This document shows positions 9,756 through 57,204 of a stretch of DNA of 64,000 nucleotides, in pieces. Origin of the DNA: Burkholderiaceae bacterium (GTDB lineage: Bacteria; Pseudomonadota; Gammaproteobacteria; Burkholderiales; Burkholderiaceae_C); NCBI GenBank assembly GCA_004323695.1, contig SCRU01000173.1, positions 1 through 64,000 of the forward strand, in the 5' to 3' direction. Position 1 is the first letter of the stretch. Each line of letters begins with the position of its first letter. The notes below the pieces were generated by a model that ran no database searches, was not told the origin of the DNA, and saw nothing but the letters and a program-made list of their open reading frames with translations. The translations under genes and the position numbers were made by a program.

Positions 9756-10700
9756 TCAGCGGGACGTTGCATCTCGGATTCGGCGCCCGGGCCTGAGCAG
9801 CCCCGTCGACAGGGCCGTGCCGCACACGATCACGGCGGCGCACAGCACCATCCAGGGCGTGATGTGCTCGCCCAGGAACGCCACGCCGTACAGCACCGCG
9901 AACACGGGCACGACAAAGGTCACCGCCAGCGCACGCGCCGGCCCGGCGTGCTCGATCAGCCGGAAGTACAGGATGTAAGCCAGGCCCGTGCACAGCACCC
10001 CCAGCGCCAGCAGCGACAGCCAGGATCGGGCGCCGGGCATGTGCGCGGGCCACAGCCACAGGGCAGGCAATGCCAGCCCGAGGGCGGCGCCGAGCTGGCT
10101 GCCAGCCGCCGTGAGCAGCGGCGGCAACCCGACCAGGTAGCGCTTGGTGAAGCTGGCCGCGGTGCCATAGCAAAGGCAGGCCAGCAGACAGGCGCCGATC
10201 GCGAGCAGGTTGGCGCCCGCGGAGGCACCACCGGACGCGCTCAGGCTCGTCTTGCTCCAGACCAGCAGCGCCACGCCGATCAGCCCGATAACCAGACCCA
10301 GCACGCGCGAGGCGTTCAGCCGGTCTTTCAGCCACAGCCATGCCACGGCCGCGCCAAACAGCGGCGCCGTGGCATTGAGGACGGCCGACAGCCCGGTGGG
10401 AATGGTCAGCAGGGCGAAGCAGTACAGCGCGAACGGAATGCCCGAATTGAGCAGACCGACGACGAACACCGGCTTCCAGTGCCGCAGTAGTTGCGGACCC
10501 AGGCCGCGCTTGAGCAGCAGCGGCATGAGGAACAGCGCGGCGATCGTCACGCGCACGGCGGCCGTGGGCACGGCGCCGAATTCCACCGTGGCCAGGTCCA
10601 TGAACAGGAACGACGCCCCCCAGATGGCGGACAGCAACACGAAGTCGCCTGCCCAGCGCGGCCTCGCGGTGGCGGCAGCCGGCGTGGCGGCGGCCGTCAA
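9756..10700 (-). CDS. EamA/DMT-superfamily transporter
   Basis: 314-residue inner-membrane protein of the drug/metabolite transporter superfamily, with ten predicted hydrophobic segments in two EamA repeats (WAGDFVLLSAIWGASFLFM; LACLCYGTAASFTKRYL). The substrate cannot be deduced. The start is most likely TTG at 10700, which overlaps the ogt stop as TTGA; no ATG or GTG fits the first transmembrane segment. It is translationally coupled to ogt and the third gene of an alkA-ogt-eamA run. Confidence 0.85.
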   Translation of the reverse strand: MTAAATPAAATARPRWAGDFVLLSAIWGASFLFMDLATVEFGAVPTAAVRVTIAALFLMPLLLKRGLGPQLLRHWKPVFVVGLLNSGIPFALYCFALLTIPTGLSAVLNATAPLFGAAVAWLWLKDRLNASRVLGLVIGLIGVALLVWSKTSLSASGGASAGANLLAIGACLLACLCYGTAASFTKRYLVGLPPLLTAAGSQLGAALGLALPALWLWPAHMPGARSWLSLLALGVLCTGLAYILYFRLIEHAGPARALAVTFVVPVFAVLYGVAFLGEHITPWMVLCAAVIVCGTALSTGLLRPGRRIRDATSR

Positions 10701-51439: not shown

Positions 51440-52471
<1,032 letters not shown>

Positions 52472-52490
52472 GGAGGGTCTCCTTGTGGGG

Positions 52491-53315
52491 TTATTTCACG
52501 GCGCCGAAGGTCAGCCCCTGGACGAGTTGTTTCTGGCACAGCCAGCCAAACACGATGATGGGCGCGATCGCCATGGTCGAAGCCGCCGACAGCTTGGCCC
52601 AGAACAGGCCTTCGGGGCTGGAATAGGAGGCGATCATGACGGCCAGCGTGCCGGCTTTCGCCGAGGTCAGGTTCAGTGCCCAGAAAGCCTCGTTCCAGCT
52701 CAGCACCAGGCACAGCAGTCCGGTGGAGGCGAGCCCGCCAATGGTCAGTGGCAGCACGACGTGGCGGAATTCCTTCCAGAGGCTGGCGCCGTCCATGCGC
52801 GCCGCCTCGAGAATTTCGCCGGGGACTTCCTTGTAGTTCGTGAAGAGTATCCAGACCATGATGGGAAGGTTCGACAGCGTGTACACGATGATCAGCGCCG
52901 GCACCGAGTCCAGCATGCCGGCGGTCTGACACATCACGTAGACAGGTATCAGCGCGCCCACGGCCGGCATCATCTTGGTCGAGAGCATCCACAGCAGGAT
53001 GTCGCGGGTGTGCCGGGTCTTGAAAAACGCCATCGAATAGGCTGCCGGTACTGCAATCAGCAGGCCCAGAACCGTCGAGCCCAGGCTGGTGTAGAGAGAG
53101 TTGCGCGCAAACAGCAGGTAATCGCTGCGCTGCTGCACCAGACTGAAGTTCTCCAGGGTCGGATGGAACACGAACAGTGGCGGCACGTGGATCGCCTGCA
53201 GTTCGGTCTTGAACGACGTCAGGAACACCCAGCCGAGCGGAAAGAACAGCAGCAGAGTCACGACCCAGGCGACCAGGGTGCGCAGCGTCACGGGCAGAAG
53301 ATTGCGGGGTGGCAT
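52491..53315 (-). CDS. Polyol ABC transporter permease (SmoG/MalG type)
   Basis: 274 residues with six hydrophobic segments. The EAA loop at EILEAARMDGASLWKEFRHVVLPLT, which contacts the ATPase, is complete. FVFHPTLENFSLV before it is common to sorbitol/mannitol permeases of this family. Starts 12 bp after the partner permease stop and ends 19 bp before the ATPase start, as expected of one operon. Confidence 0.92.
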   Translation of the reverse strand: MPPRNLLPVTLRTLVAWVVTLLLFFPLGWVFLTSFKTELQAIHVPPLFVFHPTLENFSLVQQRSDYLLFARNSLYTSLGSTVLGLLIAVPAAYSMAFFKTRHTRDILLWMLSTKMMPAVGALIPVYVMCQTAGMLDSVPALIIVYTLSNLPIMVWILFTNYKEVPGEILEAARMDGASLWKEFRHVVLPLTIGGLASTGLLCLVLSWNEAFWALNLTSAKAGTLAVMIASYSSPEGLFWAKLSAASTMAIAPIIVFGWLCQKQLVQGLTFGAVK

Positions 53316-53327
53316 GGTGTGTCCCTT

Positions 53328-54185
53328 TCAGTCCAGGTTCTTGCCGATGATGCGGACCAGGAAGACCGCCACGATGTTCGCCAGGATGACCGCGAACACT
53401 GCGCCGGCCGATGCGACGCCCACATTGAAACCCAGCAGCGCCTGCTTGTAGATCATGTACGTAATGTTGGTGCTCGCATTGCCGGGCCCGCCGCTGGTGG
53501 TGATGGCGATCTCGGCATAGATGCTGAGCAGGAAGATCATCTCGATCATGATCACCACCGACATCGGCCGGCCCAGGTGCGGCAGCGTGAGGTACCAGAA
53601 GCGCTGGCGTGCGCTGGCGCCGTCCATGCGGGCCGCTTCCATCTGCTCACGGTCGAGCGACTGCAGGGAGGTGATGAAGATCAGGCAGGCGAACGGTAGC
53701 CACTGCCAGGCGACGATGATGATGACCGACAGCAAGGGCCAGTTGGTCATCCAGTCCACCGGCGTCGCGCCAAAGGCGCGCCAGACATCCGCCAGCACGC
53801 CGTAGATCGGGTTCATCATCATGTTCTTCCACAGCAGCGCGTTTACCGTGGGCATGACGAAAAACGGGGAGATCAGCAGCACACGCACGATGCCACGCCC
53901 CGGGAACGGTTCGTTGACTAGCAATGCCAGCAACACCCCGAACACGACCGTGATCGCGATTACGCTGCCGATCAGCAGCAAGGTGTTCCACACCGCAGGC
54001 CAGAAATCCGGATCCGTCACGAAGTACCGGAAATCATTGATTCCGGCAAACGTGTGCGCGCCCGGCTCCAGAAGGTTGTAGTTGACGAACGCGTAATACA
54101 GCGTCATCACCAGCGGCACGATCATCCACAGGAAGAGCGTGAGCACGGCGGGCGCCATCAGCGCCCTGGGCATCAGTCGTTTCAT
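53328..54185 (-). CDS. Polyol ABC transporter permease (SmoF/MalF type)
   Basis: 285 residues with six hydrophobic segments. It shows the EAA loop DREQMEAARMDGASARQRFWYLTLPHL and the periplasmic segment GAHTFAGINDFRYFVTDPDFW, usual for SmoF/MtlF-like subunits. Forms the channel with the following permease. It lies 72 bp after the binding protein gene, the longest gap within the operon; no strong terminator is seen there, only a short GC-rich stretch. Confidence 0.92.
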   Translation of the reverse strand: MKRLMPRALMAPAVLTLFLWMIVPLVMTLYYAFVNYNLLEPGAHTFAGINDFRYFVTDPDFWPAVWNTLLLIGSVIAITVVFGVLLALLVNEPFPGRGIVRVLLISPFFVMPTVNALLWKNMMMNPIYGVLADVWRAFGATPVDWMTNWPLLSVIIIVAWQWLPFACLIFITSLQSLDREQMEAARMDGASARQRFWYLTLPHLGRPMSVVIMIEMIFLLSIYAEIAITTSGGPGNASTNITYMIYKQALLGFNVGVASAGAVFAVILANIVAVFLVRIIGKNLD

Positions 54186-54257
54186 GGCGGTGGTCCCGTT
54201 GGGTGACAGGGGACGCCGGGCAGGCGCTCGCGCAGCCCGCCTGGCGTGTTTGCTTTA

Positions 54258-55568
54258 CTACTTGTAATAGCCGGCCTGGCGCATGTCGCGCTCGGCGAGC
54301 TCCTGCGAGGTCTTCAACGCCTGATCGACCGTTTCCGTGCCGGCCAGGGCCGCGCTCATTTGCTGACCCACTGCCGTGCCAATGGCCTGGAATTCCGGAA
54401 TGGCGGCGTACTGAATGCCGACATACGGCGACTTCGGCAGCGTGGCATCATGCGTATCGGCGGTTTCAATCGCCTTCAGCTCCGCCGGGGCGAAGGTGGC
54501 CGCCTTTTTGAAGTCGGGGTTGGCGTAGGTCGATTCACGCGTGCCGGTCGGTACATTGGCCCAGCCTTCCTGCGACGCCACCAGCTTGATGTAGTCCTTG
54601 GAGGTCGCCCAGGTCACGAACTTGTCTGCCGCCTCGGCCTTTTTTGTGCTCGCCGGGATGGCCAGCGACCAGGACCACAGCCAGTTCGCGCCCTTGGGGG
54701 TGACCGCCACCGGCGCCTGGGCAAATGCGACGTCGCTGGCCACCTTCGACTGCTTCGGATTGCTGATGAAGGAAGCCGCGATGGTGGCGTCCACCCATTG
54801 GGCGCACTTGCCCTGATTGAAGAGCGCCAGATTCTCATTGAAGCCGTTCGCGGAAGCGCCGGGGGGACCATATTTCTTCATCATGTCGACGTAGAAATTG
54901 ACCGCGTCGTGCCAGGGCTTGGTCTCCAGTTGCGGCTGCCACTTCATGTTGAACCATTGCCCGCCGAAGGTGTTGACCATGGTACTGAGCAGCGCCATGT
55001 TTTCGCCCCAGCCCGCCTTGCCGCGCAGGCAGATGCCATAGACGCCGGCCTTCGGATCGTTCATCTTGGCGGCCGCGTCGCGCACTTCGTCCCAGGTCGG
55101 GCGCGCGCTGTACTTCACGCCGGCCTTCTCCGCCAGGTCCTTGCGGTACATCAGCATCGAACTCTCACCGTAAAACGGTGCGGCGTACAGTGTGCCGTCG
55201 TAGCTGAGGGCAGAGCGGATCGGGGGCAACAGGTCATTGACGTCGTAGGCCGCGTCAGTCTTCAGGGGCAAAATCCACTTGCGCTTGGCCCAGATCGGCA
55301 CCTCGTAGGAGCCGATGGTCATCACGTCGAACTGGCCGCCATGGGTCGCGATGTCGGTCGTCACGCGCTGGCGCAGCGTGTTCTCTTCCAGGGTGACCCA
55401 CTTGAGCTTGATGTCGGGATACGCCTTCTCGAAAAACGGCGTGAGCTTTTCCATCTCGATCATGTGGCCGTTGTTCACGGTCGCAATCACGAGTTCGGTG
55501 GCGGCGTGCGCCGTTCCCGCCACGATCATCGCGGCGGCCAGTGTGGTGAGTGTCGCTGAAAGTTTCAT
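54258..55568 (-). CDS. Polyol ABC transporter substrate-binding protein (SmoE/MtlE type)
   Basis: 436 residues with a signal peptide (TTLAAAMIVAGTAHAAT), periplasmic, of the CUT1 binding-protein class. ELVIATVNNGHMIEMEKLTPFFEKAYP is close to the N-terminus of sorbitol/mannitol-binding proteins; KYGPPGASANGFNENLALFNQGKCAQWVDATIAASF forms part of the ligand cleft. First gene of the eight-gene operon. ATG 55568 with AGGAGA eight bases upstream. Specificity among mannitol, sorbitol and arabitol is not resolved. Confidence 0.92.
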   Translation of the reverse strand: MKLSATLTTLAAAMIVAGTAHAATELVIATVNNGHMIEMEKLTPFFEKAYPDIKLKWVTLEENTLRQRVTTDIATHGGQFDVMTIGSYEVPIWAKRKWILPLKTDAAYDVNDLLPPIRSALSYDGTLYAAPFYGESSMLMYRKDLAEKAGVKYSARPTWDEVRDAAAKMNDPKAGVYGICLRGKAGWGENMALLSTMVNTFGGQWFNMKWQPQLETKPWHDAVNFYVDMMKKYGPPGASANGFNENLALFNQGKCAQWVDATIAASFISNPKQSKVASDVAFAQAPVAVTPKGANWLWSWSLAIPASTKKAEAADKFVTWATSKDYIKLVASQEGWANVPTGTRESTYANPDFKKAATFAPAELKAIETADTHDATLPKSPYVGIQYAAIPEFQAIGTAVGQQMSAALAGTETVDQALKTSQELAERDMRQAGYYK

Positions 55569-55703: not shown

Positions 55704-55851
55704 ATTCATGAGGGGTTTCACTGATGTGGTGCCAGAGCGTACCTGTTTCCAGGCCTTGCCTGCCTCTACGGGACGCTGCGGGGCGTGCCGTCATCTGGCC
55801 CTCCCGTATCGGGAATGAACACCGGCCAGTGCGCTGATATCGTCTGCTTTA

Positions 55852-55874
55852 TATACTCAAGAATATAGCGATAC
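55852..55874. promoter_or_regulatory. ModE-like molybdate operator upstream of the nitroreductase gene
   Basis: TATATACTCAAGAATATAGCGAT fits the ModE layout (TATATA-N6-TATATANCGAT) with one mismatch in the right half. The left outer bases (TGCTT) are poor. It sits 41 bp before the start codon of the nitroreductase gene; a ModE-type regulator gene lies just beyond that gene. Confidence 0.45.
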
Positions 55875-55914
55875 CGCCGCTGCGATTCGTTGCCAAACCC
55901 CTGACGGAGACGAT

Positions 55915-56796
55915 ATGAGTGACCTTGAACAAGATACGGTAGTGCGGTCCATCTCCGGCGAGGCGGTGCGGCGCCGAACGGCGCAGGTGGCAGAGTGGCG
56001 GATCGAAAAGGAAATCGAATCGGATGGTGTGGTGATGTCAGTGGTGACCCCGGATGGCATGAGGCGGTCGCTGCGGATCGAGGCGATGGACGCGCAGGAT
56101 ATCGGCGAGGTACTGCGGCAGCAGGCCGGGCCGGTTGACCTGAATGCTGACGCCGCGTCGGAAGCGGTCGGTGTCGCGCGGGGTCTGGGGGGTCTGTTGG
56201 CGCGGCGTTCGGTCTCGCCCCGGCGCTTGCAGACCCCCGGGCCCGACGCCGCGGAGCTGGACCGGTTGATCCAGGCCGGCTTGCGCGCACCCGATCACGG
56301 CGGCTTGCACCCGTGGCGCATCATTGAGTTTCGCGCGCGCAGCCGGGCGACACTGGCACGTTGCTTCGAGCAGGAGAAGTTGCGGCGCGATCCACTGGCC
56401 AGCGCCATCGATCTCAAGCGCGCGCGAGAGCACGCCACCCTGGCGCCGGTGCTGCTTGGATTTGTTGTGGCGCCGCGCCAGCTCAGCAAGGTGCCGCTGC
56501 GCGAGCAGTGGCTGGGCGCCGGGGCCGCACTCGGCAACATCCTGAATGCGGCGCACCAACTGGGCTTTGGCGCGATCGTGCTGAGCGGTGAACGCTGCTT
56601 CGATGCGATCCTGGTGCGTCAGTTGGGCTTGTCCGAGACGGAATTCCTGGCCGGCTTCATCAGCCTGGGCACGATCGCCGAGACGCCACCGCCTGCCAGG
56701 CAGAAACTCTCGCAGGACGTCTGGTCCTGCTGGATGGGCCACGAACTGCCCGATCTGATCGAGGGCGACCCCTCGTTCCGGCAGACGCGCCCGTGA
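55915..56796 (+). CDS. Nitroreductase-family protein with unusual N-terminal extension
   Basis: 293 residues. From about 95 onward it is an FMN nitroreductase of the YdjA type: RRSVSPRRL, GLRAPDHGGLHPWRIIEF, EQWLGAGAALGNILNAAHQLGFGAIVLSG. The first ~90 residues (VVRSISGEAVRRRTAQVAEWR, VVTPDGMRRSLRIEAMDAQDIGEVL) are no part of that domain and resemble nothing I know; YdjA proteins are about 185 residues. ATG 55915 is right after ACGGAGACG, so the extension is probably translated. A ModE-like box upstream and a modE-like gene downstream suggest molybdate control. Confidence 0.8.
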   Translation: MSDLEQDTVVRSISGEAVRRRTAQVAEWRIEKEIESDGVVMSVVTPDGMRRSLRIEAMDAQDIGEVLRQQAGPVDLNADAASEAVGVARGLGGLLARRSVSPRRLQTPGPDAAELDRLIQAGLRAPDHGGLHPWRIIEFRARSRATLARCFEQEKLRRDPLASAIDLKRAREHATLAPVLLGFVVAPRQLSKVPLREQWLGAGAALGNILNAAHQLGFGAIVLSGERCFDAILVRQLGLSETEFLAGFISLGTIAETPPPARQKLSQDVWSCWMGHELPDLIEGDPSFRQTRP

Positions 56797-56856
56797 CTCG
56801 TATAAAGCGGCGCTGCATGACGCCGACGGGGTGACCGCACCGGGGTGTCGCCGGGC

Positions 56857-57204
56857 TCAACGTGCCAGCTGCCGGGTCAAGGCCCTGATGTCGGCCGCGG
56901 CGGCCATTCGGGCCGTGCGTTCCAGGGCACGGTAGCGCGTGACCAGGCCGGTGCCGAACCGCGTCAGTGCCGCGCCGCCGCCATGCGCGCCGCCCGTCGC
57001 GGTGTCGACCGCAGGCGAGTTGAACGAGCGGTTTACTTCATCGACCAGGATCCAGGCGCGCCGGTACGACATGCCCAGCTGGCGCGCCGCGGCCGAAATC
57101 GAACCCGTCTCGGCGATGGCTTCCAGCAAGGCGACCTTGCCCGGTCCAATGGCGATGCGCTCGTCGCTGTAGATGCGAAGGCGGAACTGCACTTGGGATT
57201 TCAT
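56857..57204 (-). CDS. ModE-type winged-helix molybdate regulator (single DNA-binding domain)
   Basis: 115 residues. LRIYSDERIAIGPGKVALLEAIAETGSISAAARQLGMSYRRAWILVDEVNRSF is the ModE N-terminal domain. It ends shortly after GGAHGGGAALTRFGTGLVTRYRALE, so the C-terminal molybdate-binding TOBE domains are absent. Such short forms are common, and how they sense molybdate is unclear. ATG 57204 has AGGAGC immediately before it, an unusually tight spacing; GTG 57231 is an alternative. It is convergent with the nitroreductase gene, and no modABC is nearby. Confidence 0.87.
   Translation of the reverse strand: MKSQVQFRLRIYSDERIAIGPGKVALLEAIAETGSISAAARQLGMSYRRAWILVDEVNRSFNSPAVDTATGGAHGGGAALTRFGTGLVTRYRALERTARMAAAADIRALTRQLAR

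Follow-up and report, generated by a model that had tools for sequence, protein, structure and literature searches.

A conserved ModE-type box, a nitroreductase gene and a one-domain ModE gene suggest a molybdenum-regulated flavoprotein in a Polaromonas-like bacterium

A flavoprotein of the nitroreductase type is probably a molybdenum-regulated helper protein in a Polaromonas-like member of the Burkholderiaceae, since its gene follows an E. coli-type ModE box, a gene for a one-domain ModE adjoins it, and the genes of its relatives neighbor those of molybdate transporters and molybdenum enzymes. The locus lies in a window of 64,000 nucleotides, the whole stretch of DNA analyzed here. The box and its conservation, the linkage of the genes, the fusion of the flavoprotein to a small partner and the nitroreductase clade to which it belongs are established by sequence. 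With a probability of roughly 0.6, we read the locus as half of a molybdate island in which the one-domain ModE would bind the box and switch the flavoprotein gene with molybdenum supply, the product aiding molybdenum homeostasis or molybdoenzyme maturation. A first-pass annotation had grouped box, flavoprotein and one-domain ModE into a small locus. This observation is confirmed, the locus being real and conserved and the box retained before orthologues; the accompanying interpretation is supported in part.

Results

The host genome is 3.8 Mb in size and Polaromonas-like, with Polaromonas sp. C04 as the nearest named relative (80% protein identity). The nitroreductase gene (55915–56796, forward strand) encodes 293 amino acids. 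It converges, across a gap of 60 bp, with the one-domain ModE gene (56857–57204, reverse strand), whose 115-residue product consists of a DNA-binding domain only. No modABC genes lie near this pair; the genome carries a canonical modE–modABC set away from this locus, on contig C80. Upstream, an ABC transporter operon of the sugar/polyol type (51440–55568) encodes a binding protein, a pair of permeases and an ATPase, and counterparts of it adjoin the locus in L018, L056 and L099.

A 28-bp element, TGCTTTATATACTCAAGAATATAGCGAT (55845–55872), lies 43–70 bp before the start codon; it is a ModE box of the E. coli type and the presumed operator of the nitroreductase gene. Its core, TATATA-CTCAAG-AATATA-G-CGAT, spans 55850–55872; a scan of the window for the core motif gave one match against 0.02 expected from dinucleotide shuffles. 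The E. coli ModE consensus is ATCGNTATATA-N6-TATATANCGAT (PMC545781), and the box agrees with it at 18 of 22 specified positions. Shuffled upstream sequence scores 11.6 on average and 17 at most against the same consensus, with none of 300 dinucleotide shuffles reaching 18. In the 3.8 Mb genome, the box is the sole site with at most two mismatches to CGNTATATA-N6-TATATANCG. It is also the only site with 0–2 mismatches to a motif derived from the orthologues, for which matches with three mismatches stay at the level of a reversed-pattern control. The TATATA-N6 box that the first-pass annotation placed before this gene is therefore present, and unique in the genome. A search for a consensus sigma-70 promoter next to the box found none.

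Had the box been missing upstream of orthologues, the claim would have been undermined. Instead, it heads the orthologous gene or operon in all eight loci of the same lineage (the window, L018, L056, L099 and the Variovorax loci L019, L020, L021 and L057), where it is the single conserved block within otherwise diverged upstream DNA. The distance from box to start codon is 43–71 bp in L018, L056, L099, L020 and L021 and 14–52 bp in L019 and L057. Among distant orthologues, the box precedes the nitroreductase gene in L062, L063 and L068 and an Oxidored_molyb–nitroreductase operon in L065; it was not seen directly upstream in L059, L061, L066 and L067. In Variovorax, the box lies between modB and a pair formed by a small ORF and the nitroreductase gene. 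The association extends to loci in which a one-domain ModE gene adjoins modBAC: 18 of 19 such loci have a better box in the modE–modB gap than in a control stretch upstream of modE, with mean box scores of 14.4 versus 10.5 out of 22 (Wilcoxon p=0.0002).

The nitroreductase scores 60.9 bits against PF00881 (cut-off 23.5), which places it in this family. The FMN domain covers 56190–56796, contains the motif LSGERC and shows many invariant residues in the clade alignment. The cysteine of this motif was considered as a feature unique to the clade and dropped, as an outgroup has LSGRKC. The closest solved structures in the PDB are 3k6h (E=2.7e-24) and YdjA, 3bm1 (E=2.2e-17). The protein scores 81 bits against the YdjA equivalog NF008088, below its cut-off of 183.

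The first-pass annotation called the nitroreductase extended. About 92 extra N-terminal residues, matching no Pfam family, bear this out, but they are better described as a fusion with a small protein, which has an ORF to itself in Variovorax and occurs without the nitroreductase domain in a second genome of the window's genus. This N-terminal module (55915–56160, about 75–85 residues, predicted beta5-alpha) forms one protein with the nitroreductase in the window, L018 and L056, and a separate ORF of 77–86 residues in other relatives. In Variovorax, the small ORF has 77–79 residues and the nitroreductase gene comes directly after it. In L020 its stop codon and the nitroreductase start codon overlap (ATGA), leaving two separate reading frames, and the layout is the same in L021; in L019 and L057 the small ORF stops just before the nitroreductase gene. 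The Variovorax metagenome-assembled genome of L021 has an internal deletion near the N-terminal end of the nitroreductase (L021:6230–6300), either an assembly error or real. In genome G379 (L099), the box is followed by the small ORF alone; ModE is still present, and no nitroreductase domain remains.

The small module has no credible Pfam match even at E≤10. An AF2 model of the L020 copy (pLDDT 80, moderate confidence) shows a beta5-alpha arrangement and finds nothing significant among PDB folds, with a best E of 0.18 and MopII at E 0.72–1.1. We do not claim a Mop-like role for the module, because no fold match in the PDB is significant. AlphaFold modeled the full-length protein of the window poorly (mean pLDDT 54), and that model was not used. 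Across 399 genomes of the order, a profile of the module found nothing outside Polaromonas and Variovorax except a 33-residue remnant beside ModE in G123.

Sixteen nitroreductase sequences form a clade with 99% support, apart from YdjA-like relatives. Its members have three types of N terminus: the small module, fused or adjacent; none, in proteins adjoining formate dehydrogenase (L061), arsenite oxidase (L064 and L067, next to AioA) or modBAC (L058); and a LysR-type HTH, above the Pfam cut-off in L062 and L065 and weaker in L063, L066 and L068. The profile detected no HTH in L059. We found no description of the architecture seen in L062, L063, L065 and L068, where a LysR-type HTH is joined to the front of the nitroreductase domain and the LysR effector domain is absent. 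Outside the family, a clade profile found no further members in the sampled order and class, where other sequences score 141–169 bits versus 404–424, and a search of plasmids found no close relative of the clade.

The Variovorax island reads modC-modA-modB, leftward from the box; small ORF and nitroreductase, rightward from it; then trmO and modE, facing them; and an Oxidored_molyb gene. Oxidored_molyb genes neighbor the nitroreductase in L019–L021, L063 and L065, and trmO–modE in L019–L021 and L057. Compared with this layout, the window locus looks like the remaining half of a molybdate-uptake island from which modBAC and trmO have gone. In several genomes, the tRNA methyltransferase gene trmO immediately follows one-domain modE (L100:5072–5931, L101:5875–6731, L020:6848–7668); in L065 it comes after the HTH–nitroreductase gene. 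TrmO is thus repeatedly linked with molybdenum loci.

The 115-residue protein has a ModE-type winged HTH, with PDB matches to 2ijl (E=1.8e-25) and E. coli ModE, 1b9m (E=1.7e-15). It scores 88.3 bits against TIGR00637 (E=2.6e-25), just under the curated cut-off of 98.5. No TOBE or Mop molybdate-binding domain matched in it, and its description as a ModE DNA-binding domain without molybdate-binding domains holds. Orthologues are 70–79% identical and mostly adjoin modBAC, which they presumably regulate. Linkage to molybdate transport genes, usual for such proteins though not strictly defining, is seen in most relatives and is lacking here. The first-pass annotation called ModE an orphan; it is one only in this genus, as its relatives have modBAC as neighbor.

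Whether the pair co-occurs in other genomes had been proposed as a check, and it does so more often than chance. Among 401 genomes of the family, one-domain ModE is present in 11 of the 14 with the nitroreductase clade versus 82 of the 387 without it (Fisher p=1.2e-5, not corrected for relatedness, so that the value overstates the independence of these genomes). A nitroreductase is absent from the neighborhood of most one-domain ModE and modBAC loci retrieved in the family. In G255 (L056, about 10050–10290), a 112-bp frame-breaking deletion has disrupted the one-domain ModE gene, and the box and nitroreductase are intact.

The same box had also been expected before modA, and a modABC without it was to count against the proposal. 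Taken literally, it does count against it, since the genome's own modA lacks the 28-bp box, although relatives that combine one-domain ModE with modBAC have an E. coli-type box in front of modB. The comparison does not discriminate, because the genome's own modA carries a different palindrome, TCGCTATT-N9-AATAGCGA (L022:6340–6385), beside its own full-length ModE. This element is 25 bp long, with a spacing one base shorter than in the E. coli ModE box, and its arms are perfectly conserved in six of six genomes of the genus (this one and five others, L136–L140). The half-site TCGCTAT is common to both elements. The full-length ModE (contig C80, L022:5361–6188) has an HTH and a TOBE domain and orthologues in G071, G255 and G379.

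The use of a different palindrome by the genome's own modEABC indicates that two molybdenum regulators coexist. In 18 of 24 genomes tested, a full-length ModE query found the one-domain ModE as the only ModE-type protein, and the 28-bp type of box occurs with one-domain ModE in genomes where full-length ModE was not found. On the simplest reading of these patterns, the 28-bp box would belong to the one-domain ModE and the 25-bp palindrome to the full-length ModE, with the genus having both. A third ModE-like HTH, fused to PBP_like (PF12727), is encoded at L014:634–1761 (contig C105 of this genome) and at L061:346–1461 (G047) and adjoins NAD-dependent formate dehydrogenase genes in both genomes.

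Discussion

Our preferred mechanism starts with the one-domain ModE, the likely binder, occupying the 28-bp box a short way ahead of the nitroreductase start codon. The signal would be the supply of molybdenum or of molybdenum cofactor. Most likely, the gene would be repressed when molybdenum is ample and released when it is scarce. E. coli ModE represses at modA when molybdenum is sufficient, and the proposed sign is drawn by likeness to it. The product, an oxidoreductase predicted to have the FMN nitroreductase fold and fused to a small partner protein, would then be made under molybdenum scarcity. Its recurring molybdenum-gene neighbors point to a role in molybdenum homeostasis or molybdoenzyme maturation. 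Against this reading stand the four distant orthologues without a box directly upstream, the lack of a sigma-70 consensus by the box, the loss of parts of the locus in G255 and G379, and the full-length ModE, which could bind the box instead.

Control of the box by the full-length, molybdate-binding ModE, with its one-domain neighbor a relic or antagonist, is fairly unlikely in our estimate. Such a protein is present here and in three related genomes, both box types share a half-site, and G255 keeps box and gene with no working one-domain ModE. Yet the palindrome at its own modA is differently spaced and perfectly conserved in its arms, and the 28-bp type accompanies one-domain ModE where no full-length ModE was found. 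The nitroreductase domain could instead take part in sensing, reading a molybdenum-cofactor or redox signal and supplying the sensory half that the one-domain ModE lacks. The HTH fusions make such a role possible: four relatives (L062 and L065, and the weaker L063 and L068) join a LysR-type HTH to the nitroreductase, with the box upstream of the gene or operon. This ModE has no molybdate-binding domain, and molybdenum sensing by single-domain ModE has been called unclear (PMC545781). However, ModE must sense without a nitroreductase at the many modBAC loci that have none nearby, the domain keeps many invariant residues, as expected of an enzyme, and the fused HTHs resemble LysR rather than ModE. 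We consider this sensing role unlikely. More doubtful is a general form of the idea, in which the domain, HTH-fused in some relatives and in this lineage fused or adjacent to a small new protein, would serve as a flavin-based sensor of molybdenum-cofactor status, or as a maturation factor for it, and so provide the sensory half that one-domain ModE systems lack.

The locus might also be a relic in Polaromonas, its box, nitroreductase and ModE drifting without function after the loss of modBAC. Loss has indeed been piecemeal, with ModE broken in G255, the nitroreductase domain gone from G379 and absence in G177 and G321. As G255 keeps box and gene with a broken ModE and G379 keeps box and ModE without the nitroreductase domain, these genomes suggest a loosening or decaying system. 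Drift without function is nevertheless very unlikely, given the conserved place of the box and dN/dS values that indicate purifying selection on all three components: 0.09 for the nitroreductase and 0.22 for ModE (both versus L018, frames intact) and 0.13–0.53 for the small module. We give almost no credence to a chance resemblance between a ModE box and the AT-rich promoter of an ordinary detoxifying nitroreductase gene. Any AT-rich -10 region may look like TATATA when a single genome is viewed, but conservation of the box already contradicts this explanation: the whole 28-bp element is kept amid otherwise diverged upstream DNA, and it is unique in the genome.

Several known systems share parts of this locus. 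Other one-domain ModE proteins (Agrobacterium, 2ijl; Desulfovibrio, PMC545781) are likewise stand-alone HTHs without Mop domains, and in this family usually lie beside modBAC; here the protein faces a nitroreductase, in a genome with a second, full-length ModE. The 28-bp palindromic box is of the type found in the canonical ModE–modABC regulon of E. coli, but its presumed target here is a nitroreductase gene, not modABC, and the neighboring regulator has no molybdate-binding domains. YdjA-type nitroreductases (3bm1, 3k6h) share the fold and are the closest solved structures, whereas the window protein falls in a separate, well-supported clade, misses NF008088, and has an N-terminal module and a molybdenum context. 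In LysR-type regulators, likened here through the HTH_1 domain of the fused orthologues L062 and L065, an effector domain stands where these fusions have a nitroreductase domain, and no HTH is present in the protein from the window. The nitroreductases AoxC and NitR are known from arsenite oxidase operons of Herminiimonas and Acidovorax sp. NO1 (PMC2848651, PMC3834237), and disruption of nitR delayed arsenite oxidation, a result given as data not shown (PMC3834237). They resemble clade members L064 and L067 in lying next to a molybdenum enzyme, a likeness drawn from gene context. Unlike them, the window has no arsenite oxidase and no adjoining aio genes, and has a ModE box instead.

Our literature search found no paper joining ModE with a nitroreductase and none describing one-domain ModE in this family. 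Hoffmann's work of 2016 reportedly concerns molybdate uptake and cofactor status in Agrobacterium. One-domain ModE proteins and E. coli-type boxes are already known; the molybdenum-linked nitroreductase clade, the fused small protein and the HTH–nitroreductase fusions appear to be undescribed.

The means by which one-domain ModE proteins sense molybdenum are still in question (PMC545781), and the locus offers a compact testable unit of box, one-domain ModE and flavoprotein. Its genus also possesses a full-length ModE, whose box is visibly different. The fused orthologues show a nitroreductase domain in place of the effector domain of a LysR-type regulator. The analysis further defines a nitroreductase clade with links to molybdate uptake, formate dehydrogenase and arsenite oxidase; the chemistry of this clade may supply a step still missing from molybdenum homeostasis or from the maturation of molybdoenzymes.
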